From: Solidesulfovibrio sp.
GTDB taxonomy: Bacteria > Desulfobacterota > Desulfovibrionia > Desulfovibrionales > Desulfovibrionaceae
Direction: 5' to 3'
DNA: 38,219 bases
Assembly (NCBI RefSeq): GCF_029978005.1
Contig: NZ_JARKOZ010000076.1
Coordinates: 1 to 38,219, forward strand
Part shown: piece by piece, positions 25,975 through 38,037 of the stretch
Numbering within the stretch: the first letter of the stretch is position 1
Layout: each line of letters opens with the position of its first letter
The notes under the pieces: model-generated
The model's database searches: none
The model's input: only the letters and a program-made list of their open reading frames with translations
Told to the model about the DNA's origin: nothing
Program-made: the position numbers and the translations under genes

Positions 25975-26490
25975 ATGACCGCCCTCGGCGCGCTGTTCTA
26001 CCTGCTGTCCGCCGTAATGCTGGCCGCCGCCGGCCTGGCCGCCACCCGGCGCAATCCCATCCACGCCGTGTGCTGCGCCGTCGTCGCCTTCCTGGCCTCG
26101 GCCGGGGTGTTCACGGTCCTCGGCGCGCCACTGCCCGGCGCGTTGCAGGTGGTGGTCTACGCCGGGGCCATCATGGTGCTTTTCCTGTTCATCATCATGC
26201 TGCTCGGCCTGCCCGTGGGCCAGGGCTCGGTACCGGCGACGCGGCTGGCCGCGCCGGGCGTGCTGGTCGGGGCCAGCCTGGTCGCCCTGTTTACGCTCCT
26301 CATCCGCGACCCGGCCGGCCTGACGCCGCTGCCGGCGGCCACGGCCGCGCCCGGGGCCGTGGGGGCGGTGCTTTTCGGCGACTACTGGCTGGCCGTGGAA
26401 GCCGTTTCCATCCTGCTTTTCGCGGCCCTGGCCGCCGTGCTGCTGCTCGGCCGGGCCAGGCGGGGACACAAGGGAGGCGAACCGGCATGA
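25975..26490 (+). CDS. nuoJ: NADH-quinone oxidoreductase subunit J
   Basis: A 171-residue five-helix membrane subunit. The helix with QVVVYAGAIMVLFLFIIML is the NuoJ signature region with the pi-bulge helix. The start at 25975 is chosen for GGAGG seven bases upstream; an in-frame ATG at 25927 would begin inside the palindromic element. The stop overlaps the nuoK start (ATGA). Confidence 0.95.
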   Translation: MTALGALFYLLSAVMLAAAGLAATRRNPIHAVCCAVVAFLASAGVFTVLGAPLPGALQVVVYAGAIMVLFLFIIMLLGLPVGQGSVPATRLAAPGVLVGASLVALFTLLIRDPAGLTPLPAATAAPGAVGAVLFGDYWLAVEAVSILLFAALAAVLLLGRARRGHKGGEPA

Positions 26491-26795
26491 ACGTGCCCCT
26501 GTCCCACGTCCTTGTCGTGGCCGCGCTCCTTTTCGCCGTGGGCGGCCTGTGCGCCGCCTGCCGGCGCAACGTGCTCATGATCCTGGTCGGCGTGGAATTC
26601 ATGCTGACGGCCGCCTCCACCGCCTTCGTCGGCGGCGCGCTGGCCCACGGCAACCTGGACGGTCAGGCGGCGGTCATCCTGGTCATGGGCCTGGCCGCAG
26701 CCGAGGCCGCCCTGGGCCTGGCCCTGCTCGTCCATGCCCGGCGCGGCGGCGGCACGACCGACATCGACGGCTACCGCCGACTTTCGGGGGAATGA
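26487..26795 (+). CDS. nuoK: NADH-quinone oxidoreductase subunit K
   Basis: A 102-residue three-helix subunit of normal length. The two buried glutamates of the proton path are present as Glu37 (LVGVEFML) and Glu73 (AAAEAALGL). Starts inside the nuoJ stop and ends overlapping the nuoL start, so nuoJ-K-L are translationally coupled; GGAGG is upstream. Confidence 0.96.
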   Translation: MNVPLSHVLVVAALLFAVGGLCAACRRNVLMILVGVEFMLTAASTAFVGGALAHGNLDGQAAVILVMGLAAAEAALGLALLVHARRGGGTTDIDGYRRLSGE

Positions 26796-28660
26796 TGGAA
26801 AACGCCCTTGCCCTGATGCTGCTTTTCCCTCTGGCCGGGGCCGTGTTCCAGGCCGGCTGGGGCCTGTCCGTGGGCCGGCGGGCCAGCGGCGCGGCGGCCG
26901 CCCTGGCCGTGGCCGGGGCCCTGGCCGCCGCGCTTTTCGCCCTGGCCCGCTGCCCGGTCGCGCCGGTGCACGTCTCCTTCGGGGGCTGGTTCGCCTTCGA
27001 CGGCTTCTCCGCCGCCTTCTCGCTGCTTTACGACCGCATCGCCGCGGTCATGACCGCTACCGTGACCGGCACGGCCCTGCTCATCCACCTCTACTCCGCC
27101 GGCTACATGCGGGAAGACAAGTCCTATTCCCGCTATTTCTGCTACTTGAACCTGTTCGTCTTCTTCATGCTGCTCATCGCCCTGGCCGACGACCTGCTGC
27201 TGCTTTTCATGGGCTGGGAGGGCGTGGGGTTCTGTTCGTTCGCGCTCATCGGCTTCTGGCACGAGGAGCGCAAGAACGTGAACGCCGGGGTCAAGGCCTT
27301 CATCACCACGCGCATCGGCGACCTCGGCTACGTGGCCGGGCTGGCCCTTGTCGTGGCCTCCTTCGGCGAGGCGTCGCTTTCGGGCCTCGCCGCCGGGGCC
27401 GAGGTCCTCTCGCCGGGCATGGCCGCGGCCATCGGCTTCTGCTTTCTCTTCGCGGCGCTCGGCAAATCCGCCCAGCTGCCGCTCTCCTCCTGGCTCCCCG
27501 ACGCCATGGCCGGCCCCACCCCGGTCTCGGCGCTCATCCACGCCGCCACCATGGTCACGGCCGGGGTCTACCTGCTCATGCGCCTGGACCCGCTTTTGGC
27601 CTACGCCCCGTCCGTGGGCGCGTCGGCGGCGTGCATCGGCGCGGCCACGGCCCTTTACGGCGCGAGCTGCGCCCTGGGCCAGCGCGACGTCAAGCGCATC
27701 CTGGCCTATTCCACCATCAGCCAGGTCGGGTACATGTTCCTGGCCGCCGGCAGCGCCGACGTGACCGGAGCGCTTTTCCACCTCCAGACTCACGCCTTCT
27801 TCAAGTCGCTGCTGTTCATGTGCGCCGGCATCATGATCCAGGCCTGCGGCGAGGAGCACGACATCTTCCGCATGGGCGCGCACCTGCGGCGGCGCTACCC
27901 CGGCCTTTTCGTTCTCTTCACCTGCGGCGCGGCCGCCCTGGCCGGCATCCCCTTCACTTCCGGCTATTGCAGCAAGGGCCGGACCCTGGCCGACGCCCTG
28001 ACCCATCCCGATCCGGTCTTCCTGGCCGCCTTCGCCATGGGCGCGCTGGCCGCCCTGATCACGGCCATCTACGTTTTCCGCATGTATTTCGTGGCCTTTT
28101 TCTCCGAACCCGCCGATCCGGCCCGCCTGCATCCCGACCCGGCCCTTTCCCGCATGCAGTGGCCGCTGTGGCCCCTGGCCGGGCTGGCCGTGCTGTACGG
28201 CTTCGTCAACCCACCGGAATTCCTGCATCTCAAGGACTGGCTCGACCACTTCCTCGTCGGCGTGGCCGCGCCCCTGCCGCCCCATGCCGCCCAGGCGGAA
28301 CTGTTCGTGGAAAGCCTCGACGCCCTGCTCGCCCTGGCCGGGCTGGCCATCGCCTGGGGCCTGTACCGTCCGGCCCGGCATCCCGCGCCGGCCCCGGCCG
28401 GCTGGCTCACGGCCGGGCTCGGCCTGGACGGCTTCTACCTGAAGCGTCTGGCCGCGCCCTACGAAAAGCTCGCCGCCTTCGCCTGGCGCGGCATCGACGA
28501 GGACGTCCTGGATGGCGCGGCCGCCGGCCTGGCCTCGGGCGTCGGTGGAGCGTCCCTGGCCGTGGCCCGATTCGGCGGCGGACGCATCTCCGCCTCATTG
28601 CTCGCGATCTTCGCCGGCGCGGCCGTCCTGCTGCTCTGGCTCGCGATAGGATGGAATTAA
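26792..28660 (+). CDS. nuoL: NADH-quinone oxidoreductase subunit L
   Basis: A 622-residue antiporter-like subunit, close to the usual length, including the distal C-terminal part that forms the lateral helix (GLDGFYLKRLAAPYEKLAAF onward). Proton-path residues visible are Glu143 (GWEGVG), Lys225 (LGKSAQLPLSSWLPDAM), His/Lys in HAFFKSLLF (Lys338) and Lys395. After Lys395 the usual Asp is Gly396 (SKGRTL instead of SKDEIL), an uncommon change at the position of E. coli Asp400. Two tandem ATG codons (26792 and 26795) follow GGGGGA. Confidence 0.95.
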   Translation: MMENALALMLLFPLAGAVFQAGWGLSVGRRASGAAAALAVAGALAAALFALARCPVAPVHVSFGGWFAFDGFSAAFSLLYDRIAAVMTATVTGTALLIHLYSAGYMREDKSYSRYFCYLNLFVFFMLLIALADDLLLLFMGWEGVGFCSFALIGFWHEERKNVNAGVKAFITTRIGDLGYVAGLALVVASFGEASLSGLAAGAEVLSPGMAAAIGFCFLFAALGKSAQLPLSSWLPDAMAGPTPVSALIHAATMVTAGVYLLMRLDPLLAYAPSVGASAACIGAATALYGASCALGQRDVKRILAYSTISQVGYMFLAAGSADVTGALFHLQTHAFFKSLLFMCAGIMIQACGEEHDIFRMGAHLRRRYPGLFVLFTCGAAALAGIPFTSGYCSKGRTLADALTHPDPVFLAAFAMGALAALITAIYVFRMYFVAFFSEPADPARLHPDPALSRMQWPLWPLAGLAVLYGFVNPPEFLHLKDWLDHFLVGVAAPLPPHAAQAELFVESLDALLALAGLAIAWGLYRPARHPAPAPAGWLTAGLGLDGFYLKRLAAPYEKLAAFAWRGIDEDVLDGAAAGLASGVGGASLAVARFGGGRISASLLAIFAGAAVLLLWLAIGWN

Positions 28661-31670: not shown

Positions 31671-32591
31671 ATGCTGGAAGCGGTGATGAAATTGCTGGTC
31701 TGTCCGGGGTGCCTGCCGGAAGAATATGGACTGGAACTGCGAGCCGACCGTCGCGAAGGGGACGACGTCATTGCCGGGACGTTGACCTGCCCGGCCTGCG
31801 GCGCGGCCTACGCCATTGCGGACGGCGTCGCCGATCTGGTTCCCGGCCATGCGGCCGTGCCCGAGGCACAGGCCAGATACGACGAGGAGCGCCTCGCCGC
31901 CTCCTACCTCTGGGCCCATTTCGCCGACCTGTGGGACGACCCCGAGGCCACGCCGGCCTACGCGGCCTGGCTGACCGCCCTTGGCGACTGTTCCGGGCCG
32001 GCGCTCGACGCCGGTTGCGCCGTGGGCCGCTTCACCCTGGAGCTGGCCGCGCGCACGGGGTTGGCCGTGGGCGTCGACCTGTCGCGAAATTTCGTCACGC
32101 TCGCCCGCCGCATCGCCCGCCAGGGCGGCCTGGCCTTCGACGCCCCCTGGCAGGGGCTGCTCACCACCCGCTTTTCCTGCGAGCTGCCGCAACGCCTGCC
32201 GCGCGGCACGGTGGAATTCGTACGCGCCGACGCCCTGGCCCTGCCTTTCGCCCGGGGCCGCTTCGGCACGGTCGCCTCGCTCAACGTCCTGGACAAGCTG
32301 CCCAAGCCCCGCCGCCACATCGAGGAATGCCGCCGGGTGTGCGCCGCGCCGGCCACGCTTCTCGTGGCCGATCCCTTTTCCTGGTCGCCGGACATCGCCG
32401 CGCCCGAGGACTGGATCGGCGGCAGGCCGGACGCCGGCGAAAGCGGCCCCTGCCTGGCAAAGCTCCTGGCCGACGCCCCCGGCTGGACGGCCCGGCAGGC
32501 CGAAAGCGTCGCCTGGACCATCCGCGACCACAAAAACCGTTTTGAGCGCATCCGAAGCGAAACCGTCGTGGCCCGCCGCGCCCCCCTTTAA
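31671..32591 (+). CDS. SAM-dependent methyltransferase with Trm112-like zinc domain
   Basis: A 306-residue protein. Residues 1-60 resemble Trm112/YcaR: MKLLVCPGC near the start (Cys11, Cys14) and LTCPACGAAYAIADGVADLVP (Cys40, Cys43), a zinc-binding platform. Residues about 65-306 form a class I methyltransferase: motif I LDAGCAVGRF (112-121), then VGVDLS, and a later ADALALPFARGRF. The acceptor is unknown. The start at 31671 follows a GGAAGGCGGGG stretch; ATG at 31653 is a weaker alternative. It is 95 bases behind nuoN, separated by a palindromic element, so membership of the nuo transcript is uncertain. Its stop overlaps the convergent next gene's stop in TTAA. Confidence 0.8.
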   Translation: MLEAVMKLLVCPGCLPEEYGLELRADRREGDDVIAGTLTCPACGAAYAIADGVADLVPGHAAVPEAQARYDEERLAASYLWAHFADLWDDPEATPAYAAWLTALGDCSGPALDAGCAVGRFTLELAARTGLAVGVDLSRNFVTLARRIARQGGLAFDAPWQGLLTTRFSCELPQRLPRGTVEFVRADALALPFARGRFGTVASLNVLDKLPKPRRHIEECRRVCAAPATLLVADPFSWSPDIAAPEDWIGGRPDAGESGPCLAKLLADAPGWTARQAESVAWTIRDHKNRFERIRSETVVARRAPL

Positions 32592-34855
32592 TCTCCCGCC
32601 AGCGCCTCGTCGATGTAGGGCGGGATCGGCATGCCGGCCGCGCGCAGGTTGTGCCGGGCCAGCCGCACCTTCTCCAGTGGGATCTCGTGCTCGCGCCAGT
32701 AGGCCCCGGGGTCGTCCAGGAAGGCGGCCATGACCGCATAGCCCTCGGCATAGCTGCCCACCTCGTGGCAGCAGTTGACGATCCAGCGCGGCCCGAGCGC
32801 CCCCAGTTCGTAGCCGCCGCCGGACAGGTCACTCGAGAGGATGCGGAACTGCGCGAGCGTCTGCCGCCAGAACGGCTCGCCCCCGGGCCCCAGGCCCACC
32901 GGGTCGATGAAGATGTAGGGCGCGGGCAGACACTGGCCGATCTTCATGAAGGTGAGCGCCATGTTGATCTCATAGCAGGTGCCGAAGCCTCCCAGGTTGA
33001 AGACCTTGAAGAGCGAGCGCCGGTCCAGGATGTCCTGCCGGGTGTTGAGCGCCAGGTTCGTGAACTGGGCCACGGCCTGGGGGGCGAAATTGGTCTTCTG
33101 GCCGATCTCCTCGGCGTCGATGCCCACCCCCAGGCGGTAGATGTCGAGCCCCGCGGCCGCGTCGTCCACGATGCGCATCACCCCCGGCCCCGAGCCGTGC
33201 GCCACGCCGAACCCCTCGCCCAGGCGTGGATGGTCCCGCAGCCGGCGCAGGAAGTCGGCGATGGGCTCGGCCAGCACCGGCCCCAGCACGTCCACGGACG
33301 AACCGAACATGGCCATGGTGGTGTGCACGCGCGGCAGCCGCTCCTTGCCCGGCCGCGTCACCCAAAGCCCCCGGAAGAACTCCCGCACCTGGGCCTCGCC
33401 GTTCACCTCAAGGAGCAGGTAGAAGCGCATGCCCTCGTTTTCCAGGCGCACCAGCTCCTCGTACAGCGTCTGGTCCATGCGGAAGTGGGGCAGCCGACAG
33501 GCCTCGCCCACGGCGCAGCCCATGCCCCGGGCCACCACCACGCCGATGCCGTTGCGCTTGAGCACCCGCAGCGTGTCCACCGGCGGCAGCGCGTCGGACA
33601 CGAAGACCTTGGACAGATTCTGCTCGCCGCCCACGTATTTGAGTTCCTCGAGCAGCGGGCGCACGCGCTTGGGGATCTCCTCGCCCTCCATCACACCCTC
33701 GGGGATGTTGCCTCGGGCGTATTCGTAGACCAGCCGCCACTGGAACTCCTGGAGCCACTCGCCCTCCTCCTGCTCCCAGGGAACGGCGATGGTCTTGCCC
33801 GGCATGAGGATGCGGCCGTAGACCCCGCCCTGACCCGGTGCGGCCGTGACCTCGTCGAAAAAGACCCGTGTGACTGCGGGGTTGAAGACGTCGGTCAGGT
33901 CGGCGAAATCCACGCCCGCCGCCAGCACCTCCCGGGCCCGCCCCGGCGCGAGCACCCGCTCGGCCAGCCGGGCCAGTCCCTGGTCGGCCGGGTAGAGCCG
34001 CAGGCGCACGGACAGCTCGCTCGTGGACGCGGCCGCCTCGCCGCCGTTGTAGAGTTCCACCTGGCGCGGCGTGCGGATGCCCGTGGTGCGGATGCCGTCG
34101 AGCAGCCGCGAGGCCAGATGAAAGACGCCCGGGGCCGAGGTCTCGCGCACGATGAAGGCTAGGTAAGGCCCAAGGGCGATGCGCACCGCGCCCACGAGAA
34201 ATTCCTTGGCCCCGAGAAGCGCCGGCAGCCCGGCCGGGGACGGGCTCTGGAAGATGGTCAGGCCGTGCTTGCCCTTGACCACCATCTCCGCGAAATTGCG
34301 TCCCACGCCGAGCAGGCGCGAGGACAGGGCGTAGCGCAGGTTCTCCAGGGGAATTTCCACCACCCCGTCCGCGTCGATGCGGTGGCGCTCGGGCAGCAGC
34401 AGCCAGCCCCGCTCCACGGCGGCGCCGATGGCCTCGCCGGACAGGGCCGGGCCGCGCGGGATGAAAAGCCGTCCGAAATCCACTCCCCCGTCCGGGCACA
34501 ATCCGCGCAGATCGGCCAGGGATTCGGCCAGGGCGGCGTTGAGCGCCGTCAGCGCCACCGGGACCTCCACGGTGCGGGCCGCGTCCGAGACCTCCGGCGG
34601 GTCGCCCGTCAGACGCACGTCGAGGCCGATGCGCGAATGGCCGCTGCGGCCGCTTAAGTCCATGTAGTCCGTCAGCGAGGTTCCTTCCCGGGCGGCCCGG
34701 TCGCGCAGGTCGCGCACAAGGCCGCGAAGCGTGTCGCTGGTGTGGGAAAAGCGCATGAGGCCAAGGGCCTGGGGCGCGCCGAGTTCGTCGTTGAAGTGGA
34801 CGTCGCCCATGGAAACGAGCTGGCCGTCGCCGGTGATGAGCGGGGATGGGGTCAT
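32588..34855 (-). CDS. Large LOG-domain (Rossmann, lysine decarboxylase-like) protein
   Basis: A 755-residue protein. The last third (about 505-725) resembles the LOG/TIGR00730 fold: MAMFGSSV (515-522), HGSGPGVMRIVDDAA (553-567) and LGGFGTCYE (621-629), corresponding to the conserved PGGxGTxxE nucleotide-binding motif. LOG enzymes cleave nucleoside monophosphates to base and ribose phosphate; bacterial relatives such as PpnN act on purine/pyrimidine nucleotides. The preceding 500 residues have no domain I recognise, making this much longer than LOG (about 190) or PpnN (about 450). The start at 34855 is chosen for AGGAGG four bases upstream; the frame opens to 34903. A TATAAG promoter lies about 50 bases further up. 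Activity is inferred. Confidence 0.75.
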   Translation of the reverse strand: MTPSPLITGDGQLVSMGDVHFNDELGAPQALGLMRFSHTSDTLRGLVRDLRDRAAREGTSLTDYMDLSGRSGHSRIGLDVRLTGDPPEVSDAARTVEVPVALTALNAALAESLADLRGLCPDGGVDFGRLFIPRGPALSGEAIGAAVERGWLLLPERHRIDADGVVEIPLENLRYALSSRLLGVGRNFAEMVVKGKHGLTIFQSPSPAGLPALLGAKEFLVGAVRIALGPYLAFIVRETSAPGVFHLASRLLDGIRTTGIRTPRQVELYNGGEAAASTSELSVRLRLYPADQGLARLAERVLAPGRAREVLAAGVDFADLTDVFNPAVTRVFFDEVTAAPGQGGVYGRILMPGKTIAVPWEQEEGEWLQEFQWRLVYEYARGNIPEGVMEGEEIPKRVRPLLEELKYVGGEQNLSKVFVSDALPPVDTLRVLKRNGIGVVVARGMGCAVGEACRLPHFRMDQTLYEELVRLENEGMRFYLLLEVNGEAQVREFFRGLWVTRPGKERLPRVHTTMAMFGSSVDVLGPVLAEPIADFLRRLRDHPRLGEGFGVAHGSGPGVMRIVDDAAAGLDIYRLGVGIDAEEIGQKTNFAPQAVAQFTNLALNTRQDILDRRSLFKVFNLGGFGTCYEINMALTFMKIGQCLPAPYIFIDPVGLGPGGEPFWRQTLAQFRILSSDLSGGGYELGALGPRWIVNCCHEVGSYAEGYAVMAAFLDDPGAYWREHEIPLEKVRLARHNLRAAGMPIPPYIDEALAGD

Positions 34856-34905
34856 GGGGCCTCCTGCCGGAGGGCGGCCAGATCGCCGCGCGGGTCCGGA
34901 CAATT

Positions 34906-36345: not shown

Positions 36346-38037
36346 ATGGACGTTCCCGCGCACGCCCTCCTCGCATCCCCGGATCGCGCCGAAGAGCTCA
36401 AGGCCCGGTCCCTTTCCCACAAGTCCGTGACCCTGTCCCCGCGTCAGCAAGCCACTCTCGAATTGCTGCTCTCCGGAGCCCTCTTTCCCCTCACCGGCTA
36501 CATGGGCCGGGAGGACTGGCAAGCCGTGCTCGATTCCATGCGCCTGGCCGACGGCCGCCTCTTCCCCATGCCCGTCTGCCTCGACGCGCCGGCCGCCCTG
36601 GCCCAGGGCCTCACGCCCGGGGAGAAGCTGGCCCTGCGCGACCAGGAAGGCTTCATGCTGGCGGTGCTGACCGTGTCCGAAGCCTGGGAGGCGGATGCGC
36701 ACGCCGAGGCGGCCGCCGTCTTCGACGCGGCGGACATCGACCGCCACCCCGGCGCGGCGGCCTACGCCCGGGAAACCGCGCCCTGGCGCGTGGGCGGCGC
36801 GGTCGAGGGCGTGTCTCTGCCGCCCCATGCCGACTTTCCGGAACTGCGCCGCACGCCCCAGGCCGTTCGGGACGTGTTCCGGCAGCGCGGCTGGCGACGG
36901 GTGATCGGCTGCCAGACCGACACACTGCTCCACAACCGCGAGCACGCCATGCTGCGCCGGGCGGCGGCGGACGTCGAAGGCAGCATCCTGCTGCTGCGCT
37001 GCGCCGGCGACGCCATGGCCGGCGGCGCGCCCCACTTCGTCGGCGTGCGCTGCGCCCGCCTGTTCTCCGGGGCCTTTCCCGAAAATCTCCTGCTCCTCAG
37101 CCTCCTCCCCCTGCTTCGGCTCAACGCCGGGCCGCGCCAGGCCCTCTTCGAGGCCCTTGTTCAGAAAAACCACGGCTGCACCCATACCCTGGTGGGCCTG
37201 AACCACGCCGACCCTACGGCTGCCAGTGGAACGCCCTTCTACCCGCCGGGCAAGGCCCAACGCCTCGTGGCCGAGAGCGAAGACGAGACCGGCATCGCCA
37301 TGGTCCCGGAAACCCCCATGGAATACGTGGAGGAAAAAGCCCAATACCTGCCGCGCGCCGCCGTCGGCCAGGGAATGACCGCCCGTGACGTCACGCCGGC
37401 GGAATTCACCCGCCGCCTGGAATTCGGCCTGGACGTCCCGGCCTGGTTCACCCCGCCGGAAGTCACGGCCGAACTGCGCGCCGTCTTCCCGCCGCGCTCC
37501 AAACAAGGCTTCACCCTCTTCATGACCGGGCTCTCCGGCGCGGGCAAATCCACCCTGGCCAAGATCCTCTACGTCAAGTTCATGGAACTGCGCACCCGGC
37601 CGGTCACGCTCCTCGACGGCGACATCGTGCGCCGGCACCTCTCGAGCGAACTCACCTTCTCCAAGGAACACCGCAACCTCAACATCGCCCGTATCGGCTT
37701 CGTGGCCAGCGAAATCACCAAAAACGGCGGCATCGCCATCTGCGCCCCCATCGCGCCCTACGCCAGCGCCAGACGGGAAGCCCGCTCCCTGGTCGCGCCC
37801 CACGGCGGCTTCGTGGAAATCCACGTCTCCACGCCGCTGGACGTGTGCGAACAGCGCGACCGCAAAGGCCTCTACGCCAAGGCCCGGGCCGGACTCGTCA
37901 AAGGCGTCACCGGCATCGACGACCCCTACGAACTCCCCGAACACCCGGAACTCCGCCTGGACACCAGCCGCCTCAGCCCCGGCGAAGCGGCCCAGGAAAC
38001 GCTGCTCTACCTCGAACGCGAAGGCTATCTGGCGTAG
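36346..38037 (+). CDS. APS kinase fused to a degenerate ATP-sulfurylase domain
   Basis: A 563-residue protein with the domain order of bacterial bifunctional PAPS synthases (sulfurylase first, kinase last). The sulfurylase-like part (1 to about 370) aligns well overall (DIDRHPGAAAYARE, RRTPQAVRDVFRQRGW, KNHGCTHTLVG), but its catalytic motifs are lost: QTRNPLHxxH reads QTDTLLH followed by His200 with an extra residue (190-200), and GRDHAG reads GLNHAD (284-289). The APS kinase part (about 385-563) looks intact: Walker A GLSGAGKS at 395-402, LDGDIVRRHLS from 423, and GLYAKARAG...TGIDDPYE...PEHPELRLDT. It should phosphorylate APS to PAPS; sulfate activation by the first domain is doubtful. GGAGG lies eight bases before the ATG. 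Confidence 0.88.
   Translation: MDVPAHALLASPDRAEELKARSLSHKSVTLSPRQQATLELLLSGALFPLTGYMGREDWQAVLDSMRLADGRLFPMPVCLDAPAALAQGLTPGEKLALRDQEGFMLAVLTVSEAWEADAHAEAAAVFDAADIDRHPGAAAYARETAPWRVGGAVEGVSLPPHADFPELRRTPQAVRDVFRQRGWRRVIGCQTDTLLHNREHAMLRRAAADVEGSILLLRCAGDAMAGGAPHFVGVRCARLFSGAFPENLLLLSLLPLLRLNAGPRQALFEALVQKNHGCTHTLVGLNHADPTAASGTPFYPPGKAQRLVAESEDETGIAMVPETPMEYVEEKAQYLPRAAVGQGMTARDVTPAEFTRRLEFGLDVPAWFTPPEVTAELRAVFPPRSKQGFTLFMTGLSGAGKSTLAKILYVKFMELRTRPVTLLDGDIVRRHLSSELTFSKEHRNLNIARIGFVASEITKNGGIAICAPIAPYASARREARSLVAPHGGFVEIHVSTPLDVCEQRDRKGLYAKARAGLVKGVTGIDDPYELPEHPELRLDTSRLSPGEAAQETLLYLEREGYLA

Follow-up and report, generated by a model that had tools for sequence, protein, structure and literature searches.

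A two-domain APS kinase of Solidesulfovibrio with a degenerate ATP sulfurylase domain

Sulfurylase-type and kinase-type domains are joined on one chain in several described proteins. In the bifunctional enzyme of Aquifex aeolicus (PDB 2gks) the sulfurylase loops are intact (QTRNPMHRVH, GRDHAS, SGTEIR). In the two-domain APS kinase of Thiobacillus denitrificans (PDB 3cr8, Gay et al. 2009) the sulfurylase domain is reported to be inactive, and this dead domain has been proposed to stabilise the hexamer (PMC13213808). The APS kinase of Entamoeba histolytica (PDB 23vk) also has a dead sulfurylase-like domain before the kinase, described as enhancing the active kinase: without the domain kcat is reported to fall about 100-fold, and two point mutations to lower it 21- to 60-fold, while kcat/KM changed little and the shortened protein aggregated (PMC13213808). 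The ATP sulfurylase of Penicillium chrysogenum (PDB 1i2d, 1m8p) can be seen as the mirror image, as it is the kinase-like domain (P-loop GYMNSGKDA) that is described as dead and regulatory, sensing PAPS. For the sulfurylase active site itself, the QXRN and GRD loops and a conserved SGTxxR motif, the Arg of which swings towards sulfate, have been described (PMC3779200), and the transition state of the soybean enzyme is reported to involve Arg248, Asn249, His255 and Arg349 (cited in PMC9578213). Judged by spacing, these four would correspond to the Arg and Asn of QXRN, the second His of HXXH and the Arg of GRD.

The fusion gene described here lies in a window (the whole stretch of Solidesulfovibrio DNA that was analysed) of 38,219 nucleotides, at 36346..38037 on the forward strand. 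It is an intact open reading frame of 563 amino acids, with an ATG start preceded by a GGGAGGA stretch and zero internal stops. Pfam places the PUA-like N-terminal part of the sulfurylase-like domain at residues 8-156 (36367..36813; PF14306, PUA_2, 119 bits), the catalytic part, without its catalytic motifs, at residues 166-378 (36841..37479; PF01747, 149.7 bits, as against 282 bits for the separate Sat of the same genome) and the APS kinase domain at residues 387-539 (37504..37962), all on the forward strand. NCBIfam assigns the protein to PRK05537/NF004040, the bifunctional sulfate adenylyltransferase/adenylylsulfate kinase, at 719.4 bits against a curated cut-off of 669, but the intact QXRN, HXXH, GRD and SGTxxR implied by that name were not found. 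Pfam, NCBIfam, AlphaFold and Foldseek together describe a two-domain APS kinase with a degenerate N-terminal ATP sulfurylase domain. A sulfurylase fold leading into a kinase on one chain, loss of the sulfurylase catalytic residues and intact kinase motifs are features that the protein shares with the T. denitrificans type; the kind of protein found in the window is already known from the dead-sulfurylase APS kinases of T. denitrificans and Entamoeba.

The initial annotation, made from the sequence alone, had described the N-terminal domain as recognisably ATP sulfurylase but without its catalytic motifs, and had suggested alignment with the Aquifex and Thiobacillus enzymes and a look at related genomes. 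Both comparisons bear it out. The former QTRNPxHxxH loop (residues 190-199, 36913..36942, forward strand) now reads QTDTLLHNRE, with QTDTL at 190-194; the former GRDHAG loop (residues 284-289, 37195..37212, forward strand) reads GLNHAD; and the former SGTxxR motif (residues 350-355, 37393..37410, forward strand), loss of which is a further finding of the motif comparison, reads TPAEFT. In the alignment, QXRN is thus QTDT, HXXH is HNRE and GRD is GLN. The first His of HXXH (His196) is kept, and the residues at the four presumed transition-state sites are Asp, Thr, Glu and Leu; the Arg of SGTxxR is Thr. One detail did not survive alignment: a one-residue insertion had been placed before the second His, but QTDTLLHNRE matches QTRNPMHRVH without a gap, position 199 is Glu, and the His that had been counted is the variable position 200. 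Nor are the catalytic motifs found intact elsewhere in the domain, as the whole domain aligns end to end.

Among 34 aligned copies from the order (the window and 33 others), the GRD Arg and the QXRN Asn are absent from all and the QXRN Arg is present in two. A sequencing artefact is excluded because the 33 further copies also lack the GRD Arg and the QXRN Asn. A pseudogene is also ruled out: none of the 34 copies, one of which reaches the end of its contig, has an internal stop, and in the 22 closest pairs dN/dS does not exceed 0.40.

The kinase half was taken to be complete in the initial annotation, and it is: the full Pfam APS_kinase profile (1-152 of 152) is covered and all motifs are present (P-loop GLSGAGKST, LDGDIVRR, FSKEHRNLN, ICAPIAPY and RDRKGLYAKA), many of their residues being invariant across a 30-row alignment. 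The T. denitrificans enzyme, which has the same domain order and is the best PDB sequence match (473.5 bits), has identical kinase motifs except for FSKEHRNLN. In contrast to the window protein, it still has Arg in QXRN and the first two residues, SG, of SGTxxR. The Entamoeba enzyme differs further, being described as dimeric and as wholly lacking the substrate-binding loop (PMC13213808).

In the AlphaFold model, built with 42 sequences, the sulfurylase fold is predicted to be retained though the active site is lost. Mean pLDDT is 91.3 and pTM 0.83, and within the dead domain the average falls below 70 only at residues 1-10 and 221-230. The top Foldseek matches (1i2d, 1m8p, 2gks and 3cr8) are nearly full length, with TM-scores to the query of 0.73-0.85. 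The first of these belong to Penicillium, which shares the two-domain fold and the keeping of one domain after loss of catalysis; with Aquifex, architecture and fold are shared over 542 columns.

The genome carrying the window has aprA (1101.6 bits, contig C75) and a separate Sat (contig C40) with QLRNPMHRSH, GRD and SGTxxR intact, and thus looks like that of a sulfate reducer having its own source of APS. The initial annotation had expected a separate Sat; it is present, with every listed catalytic residue in place, and it is this gene, rather than the fusion, that fits the role of a stand-alone Sat with intact loops. CysD gave no match in the genome. Two other proteins of this genome may be recorded here. 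A 417-residue protein on contig C61 (L235:1530-2783, reverse strand) has a weak APS_kinase match (67.7 bits) and an AAA_33 match in its C-terminal half, with no Pfam match in its N-terminal half, and is probably not a true APS kinase. On contig C172 (28810-30480) there is a full-length, divergent AprA-like protein, similar to proteins in twelve other genomes (368-426 bits against a cut-off of 641.75); all genomes with it except one (G025) also carry normal aprA or pieces of it.

The fusion is present in all 13 other genomes of the genus that were searched. Across genus, family and order, a near full-length fusion occurs in 33 of 59 genomes (own included) as 34 copies, with a cut piece in one more, and 32 of the 34 fusion genomes of the order have a separate Sat-like match (the exceptions are G052 and G057). 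The genome with two copies, G003, has two altered fusions, L007 (contig C2) and L035 (C11), which are 78% and 63% identical to that of the window; L035 keeps HXXH (HCAH), and L007 has HNRQ.

The survey was widened by the best 80 named loci among the matches listed in a scan of 84,980 species genomes, and by fusions from the order (20 genomes) and class (369 genomes) around a Thiogranum MAG. This gave 178 scored sequences after 8 duplicate loci, 2 partial fusions (L134 of G155, and L152), 6 stand-alone Sats and 3 PDB rows had been left out; fusions with internal stops (G244, G470, G184) and the partial ones of G323 and G052 were also unscored. A fusion was called intact when nine residues (Q, R, N, H, H, G, R, D, H) were all canonical. 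SGTxxR played no part in this call, and in 74 intact fusions its residues were S in 74, G in 74, T in 73 and R in 74. In genomes with aprA (counting as present the fragments below the family cut-off in G101, G108, G122, G007 and G053), 85 of 86 sequences are altered, three of them by one residue, and the sole intact one is L121; in genomes without aprA, 73 of 92 are intact. Three fusions, L073 and L080 (Desulfacinum) and L081 (a Desulfobacteraceae MAG), have a single change among the nine scored residues, Gln for the second His of HXXH, with GRD intact, and L080 is changed in the SGTxxR region too; these fusions may have only begun to lose the function, or may retain activity.

A separate Sat was found in 26 of 34 genomes with altered fusions, compared with two of 35 with intact ones. 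These 69 genomes comprise 62 of 64 from one aprA search (G244 and G470 left out) and seven picked by hand because they broke the aprA pattern (in six the fusion is altered although aprA is absent, in one it is intact although aprA is present); stand-alone PF01747 matches were sorted by hand, a genome with two fusions was called altered if either copy was, and four genomes with scored fusions (G071, G087, G078, G081) stood outside the Sat search. CysD was searched for because the redundancy idea predicted it, and it was found in four of the eight altered genomes without Sat (G267, G382, G480, G385), all with heavily altered fusions, and also in three with intact fusions (G231, G345, G412). Taking Sat and CysD together, another ATP sulfurylase accompanies 30 of 34 altered-fusion genomes and five of 35 intact ones (Fisher p 3e-10 over the 69 genomes), a split that fits loss by redundancy. 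The exceptions are G144, G088, G434 and G082, altered without Sat or CysD (the last two by a single substitution), and, on the intact side, G277 and G095, which have Sat, with the three CysD genomes above. In G385, the heavily altered fusion (C31:24425-26050) and cysD (26265-27146, on the opposite strand) are 214 bases apart, and a second fusion elsewhere in the genome is nearly intact (second His to Tyr).

The counts overstate the strength of this pattern. The motif state changes six times along the tree, and in independent-pair tests with 3-11 pairs per test, a mean of 0.5-2.3 pairs differed as predicted and 0-0.3 in the opposite direction, the rest showing no difference, so that 0.05 cannot be reached. 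The sulfurylase half tends to die where another ATP sulfurylase exists, but because few independent events underlie the counts this rule is not statistically secure.

Most of the sulfate-reducer sequences form one clade (support 100/100), and one old loss event would therefore account for them. A single loss for all altered fusions is rejected (AU test on 45 rows, p 0.0013). A loss common to the sulfate reducers and a sulfur-oxidiser clade is not rejected (p 0.43); both names were given on the basis of aprA and the titles of the records, and aprA gave no match for several rows of the second group. The T. denitrificans enzyme lies outside the window's clade, and adding its group to these two is borderline, being rejected only at p 0.047; under a simpler tree model, 95 altered rows including the sulfur-oxidiser clade and the T. 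denitrificans group fall in one clade (support 77). L208 and L209 are each joined to intact rows (support 97/90) and to a one-change row (98/92). We read these trees as pointing to at least three losses. The dead domain of Entamoeba was added to see whether it came from this clade, but its relation to the bacterial clades has support of 24/3, too low to place it.

Selection on the dead domain was compared with that on the kinase. Among the 22 closest pairs, dN/dS spans 0.06-0.40 in the dead domain, compared with 0.02-0.30 in the kinase, and the dead domain has the higher value in each pair, although the values are rough, coming from a simple method applied to GC-rich genes. At a kinase distance of 0.3, the sulfurylase domains differ by 0.37 among intact fusions, by 0.56 among all altered ones and by 0.45-0.52 within single altered groups. 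Together the two comparisons show a domain under purifying but relaxed selection.

The old pocket has fared differently in different groups. In Solidesulfovibrio, represented by 9 thinned rows that exclude one of the two G003 copies (L035), the mean entropy of 20 active-site columns is 1.31 bits, compared with 0.94 elsewhere in the domain, a value that 98.9% of random draws do not exceed for the active-site columns, and His196 is replaced in 7 of 14 rows. The pocket is therefore drifting, which argues, in this genus, against a sensory pocket and against the APS-binding role that the initial annotation had suggested. In the other sulfate reducers (33 thinned rows), the active-site columns have 0.81 bits and the rest 1.24 (1.7% of random draws as low), with the consensus GFhTe.yLHCAHrEM and a.DhaDPf; in the sulfur-oxidiser clade the values are 0.90 and 1.15, which is not significant (8.9% of draws), with the consensus TskPMHRlq / GP.Ha.PP. 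In intact fusions they are 0.18 and 1.19, the former being low partly by definition.

The surroundings of the gene were searched for clues to the use of PAPS. Upstream in the window is an HDOD protein, and the contig ends 182 bases past the fusion gene; no sulfation gene is found among the two window neighbours scanned. Across the genus no conserved partner gene lies beside the fusion, its neighbours varying by sub-clade (chemotaxis, DNA polymerase III and HDOD among those scanned). The use in sulfation suggested by the initial annotation is consistent with two relatives (L230, L231) in which the fusion lies among glycosyltransferase genes, in a polysaccharide cluster: a sulfotransferase gene is about 6 kb from the fusion in L231, and in L230 there are a polysaccharide export gene and, on the same contig, sulfotransferase matches 9-14 kb off. 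A tight link between fusion and sulfotransferase does not hold, however, as the association is weak: Sulfotransfer_3 occurs in 23 of 34 genomes with the fusion and in 10 of 25 without (Fisher p 0.06). The window's own genome encodes one Sulfotransfer_3 protein. A neighbouring gene belonging to one cluster is present at 11 of the 56 loci examined (of 80), of which just three have altered fusions; the four members scanned encode Inositol_P proteins, which may act on PAP. Within the window, a gene at 32588-34903 (reverse strand) encodes 771 amino acids with no Pfam match and a weak TIGR00730 match, and a related gene is near the fusion at five of ten other loci fetched from the genus. In four Desulfobulbaceae MAG and Desulfogranum loci (L048, L049, L059, L061), the fusion is followed at equal offsets by a VanZ-like protein, whose match in L061 falls slightly short of the Pfam threshold, and then by what by eye resembles a sensor kinase, a small protein and an apparent sigma-54 response regulator.

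Taken together, the window protein is probably a monofunctional APS kinase on a retained sulfurylase-fold scaffold, supplied with APS by Sat. The N-terminal domain, its fold kept in a confident model, would have lost its catalysis and most likely serves as a module for oligomerisation and support of the kinase; the separate Sat, the enzyme of sulfate respiration, would supply APS through the cytosol; the fusion's kinase would convert APS to PAPS, most likely for sulfotransferases; and the sulfurylase half would have died where another ATP sulfurylase made it redundant. We infer all of these steps, from inactivity of the window's sulfurylase domain to redundancy as the cause and sulfation as the use. 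The proposal of the initial annotation, a repurposed domain rather than a bifunctional enzyme, stands as far as the lost catalytic residues and the complete kinase are concerned; with the old pocket drifting, a structural role fits Solidesulfovibrio better than a nucleotide sensor. Several points count against a scaffold: sulfate reducers of other genera have a changed pocket that is nevertheless conserved (LHCAH, DHxDP), which a pure scaffold does not need; kcat/KM of the Entamoeba enzyme hardly changed on loss of the domain; and the precedents for the role are two distant relatives, unlike each other in oligomer and mechanism.

It is very improbable that the domain retains a weak or altered ATP sulfurylase activity, which would make the enzyme bifunctional as its NCBIfam name says. 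The equivalog score, the retained first His of HXXH and the few related fusions with a single change, such as those of Desulfacinum, would suit such activity, but here the QXRN Arg and Asn, the second His, the GRD Arg and the SGTxxR Arg are lost together, the last being present in 74 of 74 intact fusions although it lies outside the definition of intact, and the T. denitrificans enzyme, with fewer of these residues lost, is reported to be without activity. An unlikely reading is that the dead domain is a repurposed sensor of a ligand (APS, PAPS, ATP or another nucleotide) that tunes the kinase, a mirror of Penicillium. The changed yet conserved pocket of the other sulfate reducers and the separate consensus of the sulfur-oxidiser clade speak for it, whereas the conservation in that clade is not significant and in the window's own genus the pocket columns vary more than the rest. 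That the domain is a docking module, whose direct contacts would let it take over APS from Sat or deliver PAPS to a sulfotransferase, is quite unlikely: purifying selection after loss of its own catalysis and the sulfotransferase matches 6-14 kb from the gene in two relatives agree with docking, but the genus has no conserved partner gene beside the fusion. Possible, if doubtful, is a history that combines scaffold and sensor, in which the sulfurylase half died several times where another ATP sulfurylase was present, the dead site was rebuilt in most lineages as a conserved ligand pocket regulating PAPS synthesis (LHCAH/DHxDP in sulfate reducers, TSKPMHR/GPxHxxPP in the sulfur-oxidiser clade), and the window's genus later lost the pocket and keeps the scaffold only. 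In the cousins of Solidesulfovibrio, as judged from pocket conservation, the domain may be a sensor.

In the open literature, neither the sulfate-reducer clade of altered fusions nor the redundancy rule was found described, nor an assay of any protein of that clade, most subscription papers lying outside the search. Automatic annotation calls these fusions bifunctional PAPS synthases, and in the sampled genomes with aprA almost none should be; metabolic models are affected where such genomes are credited with a second ATP sulfurylase. The proposed rule, that the sulfurylase half is intact in cells with no other ATP sulfurylase and dead in those that have one, is testable. The series from an intact pocket, through one that is changed but conserved, to one that is drifting can be seen as a natural experiment on why dead enzyme domains are kept.
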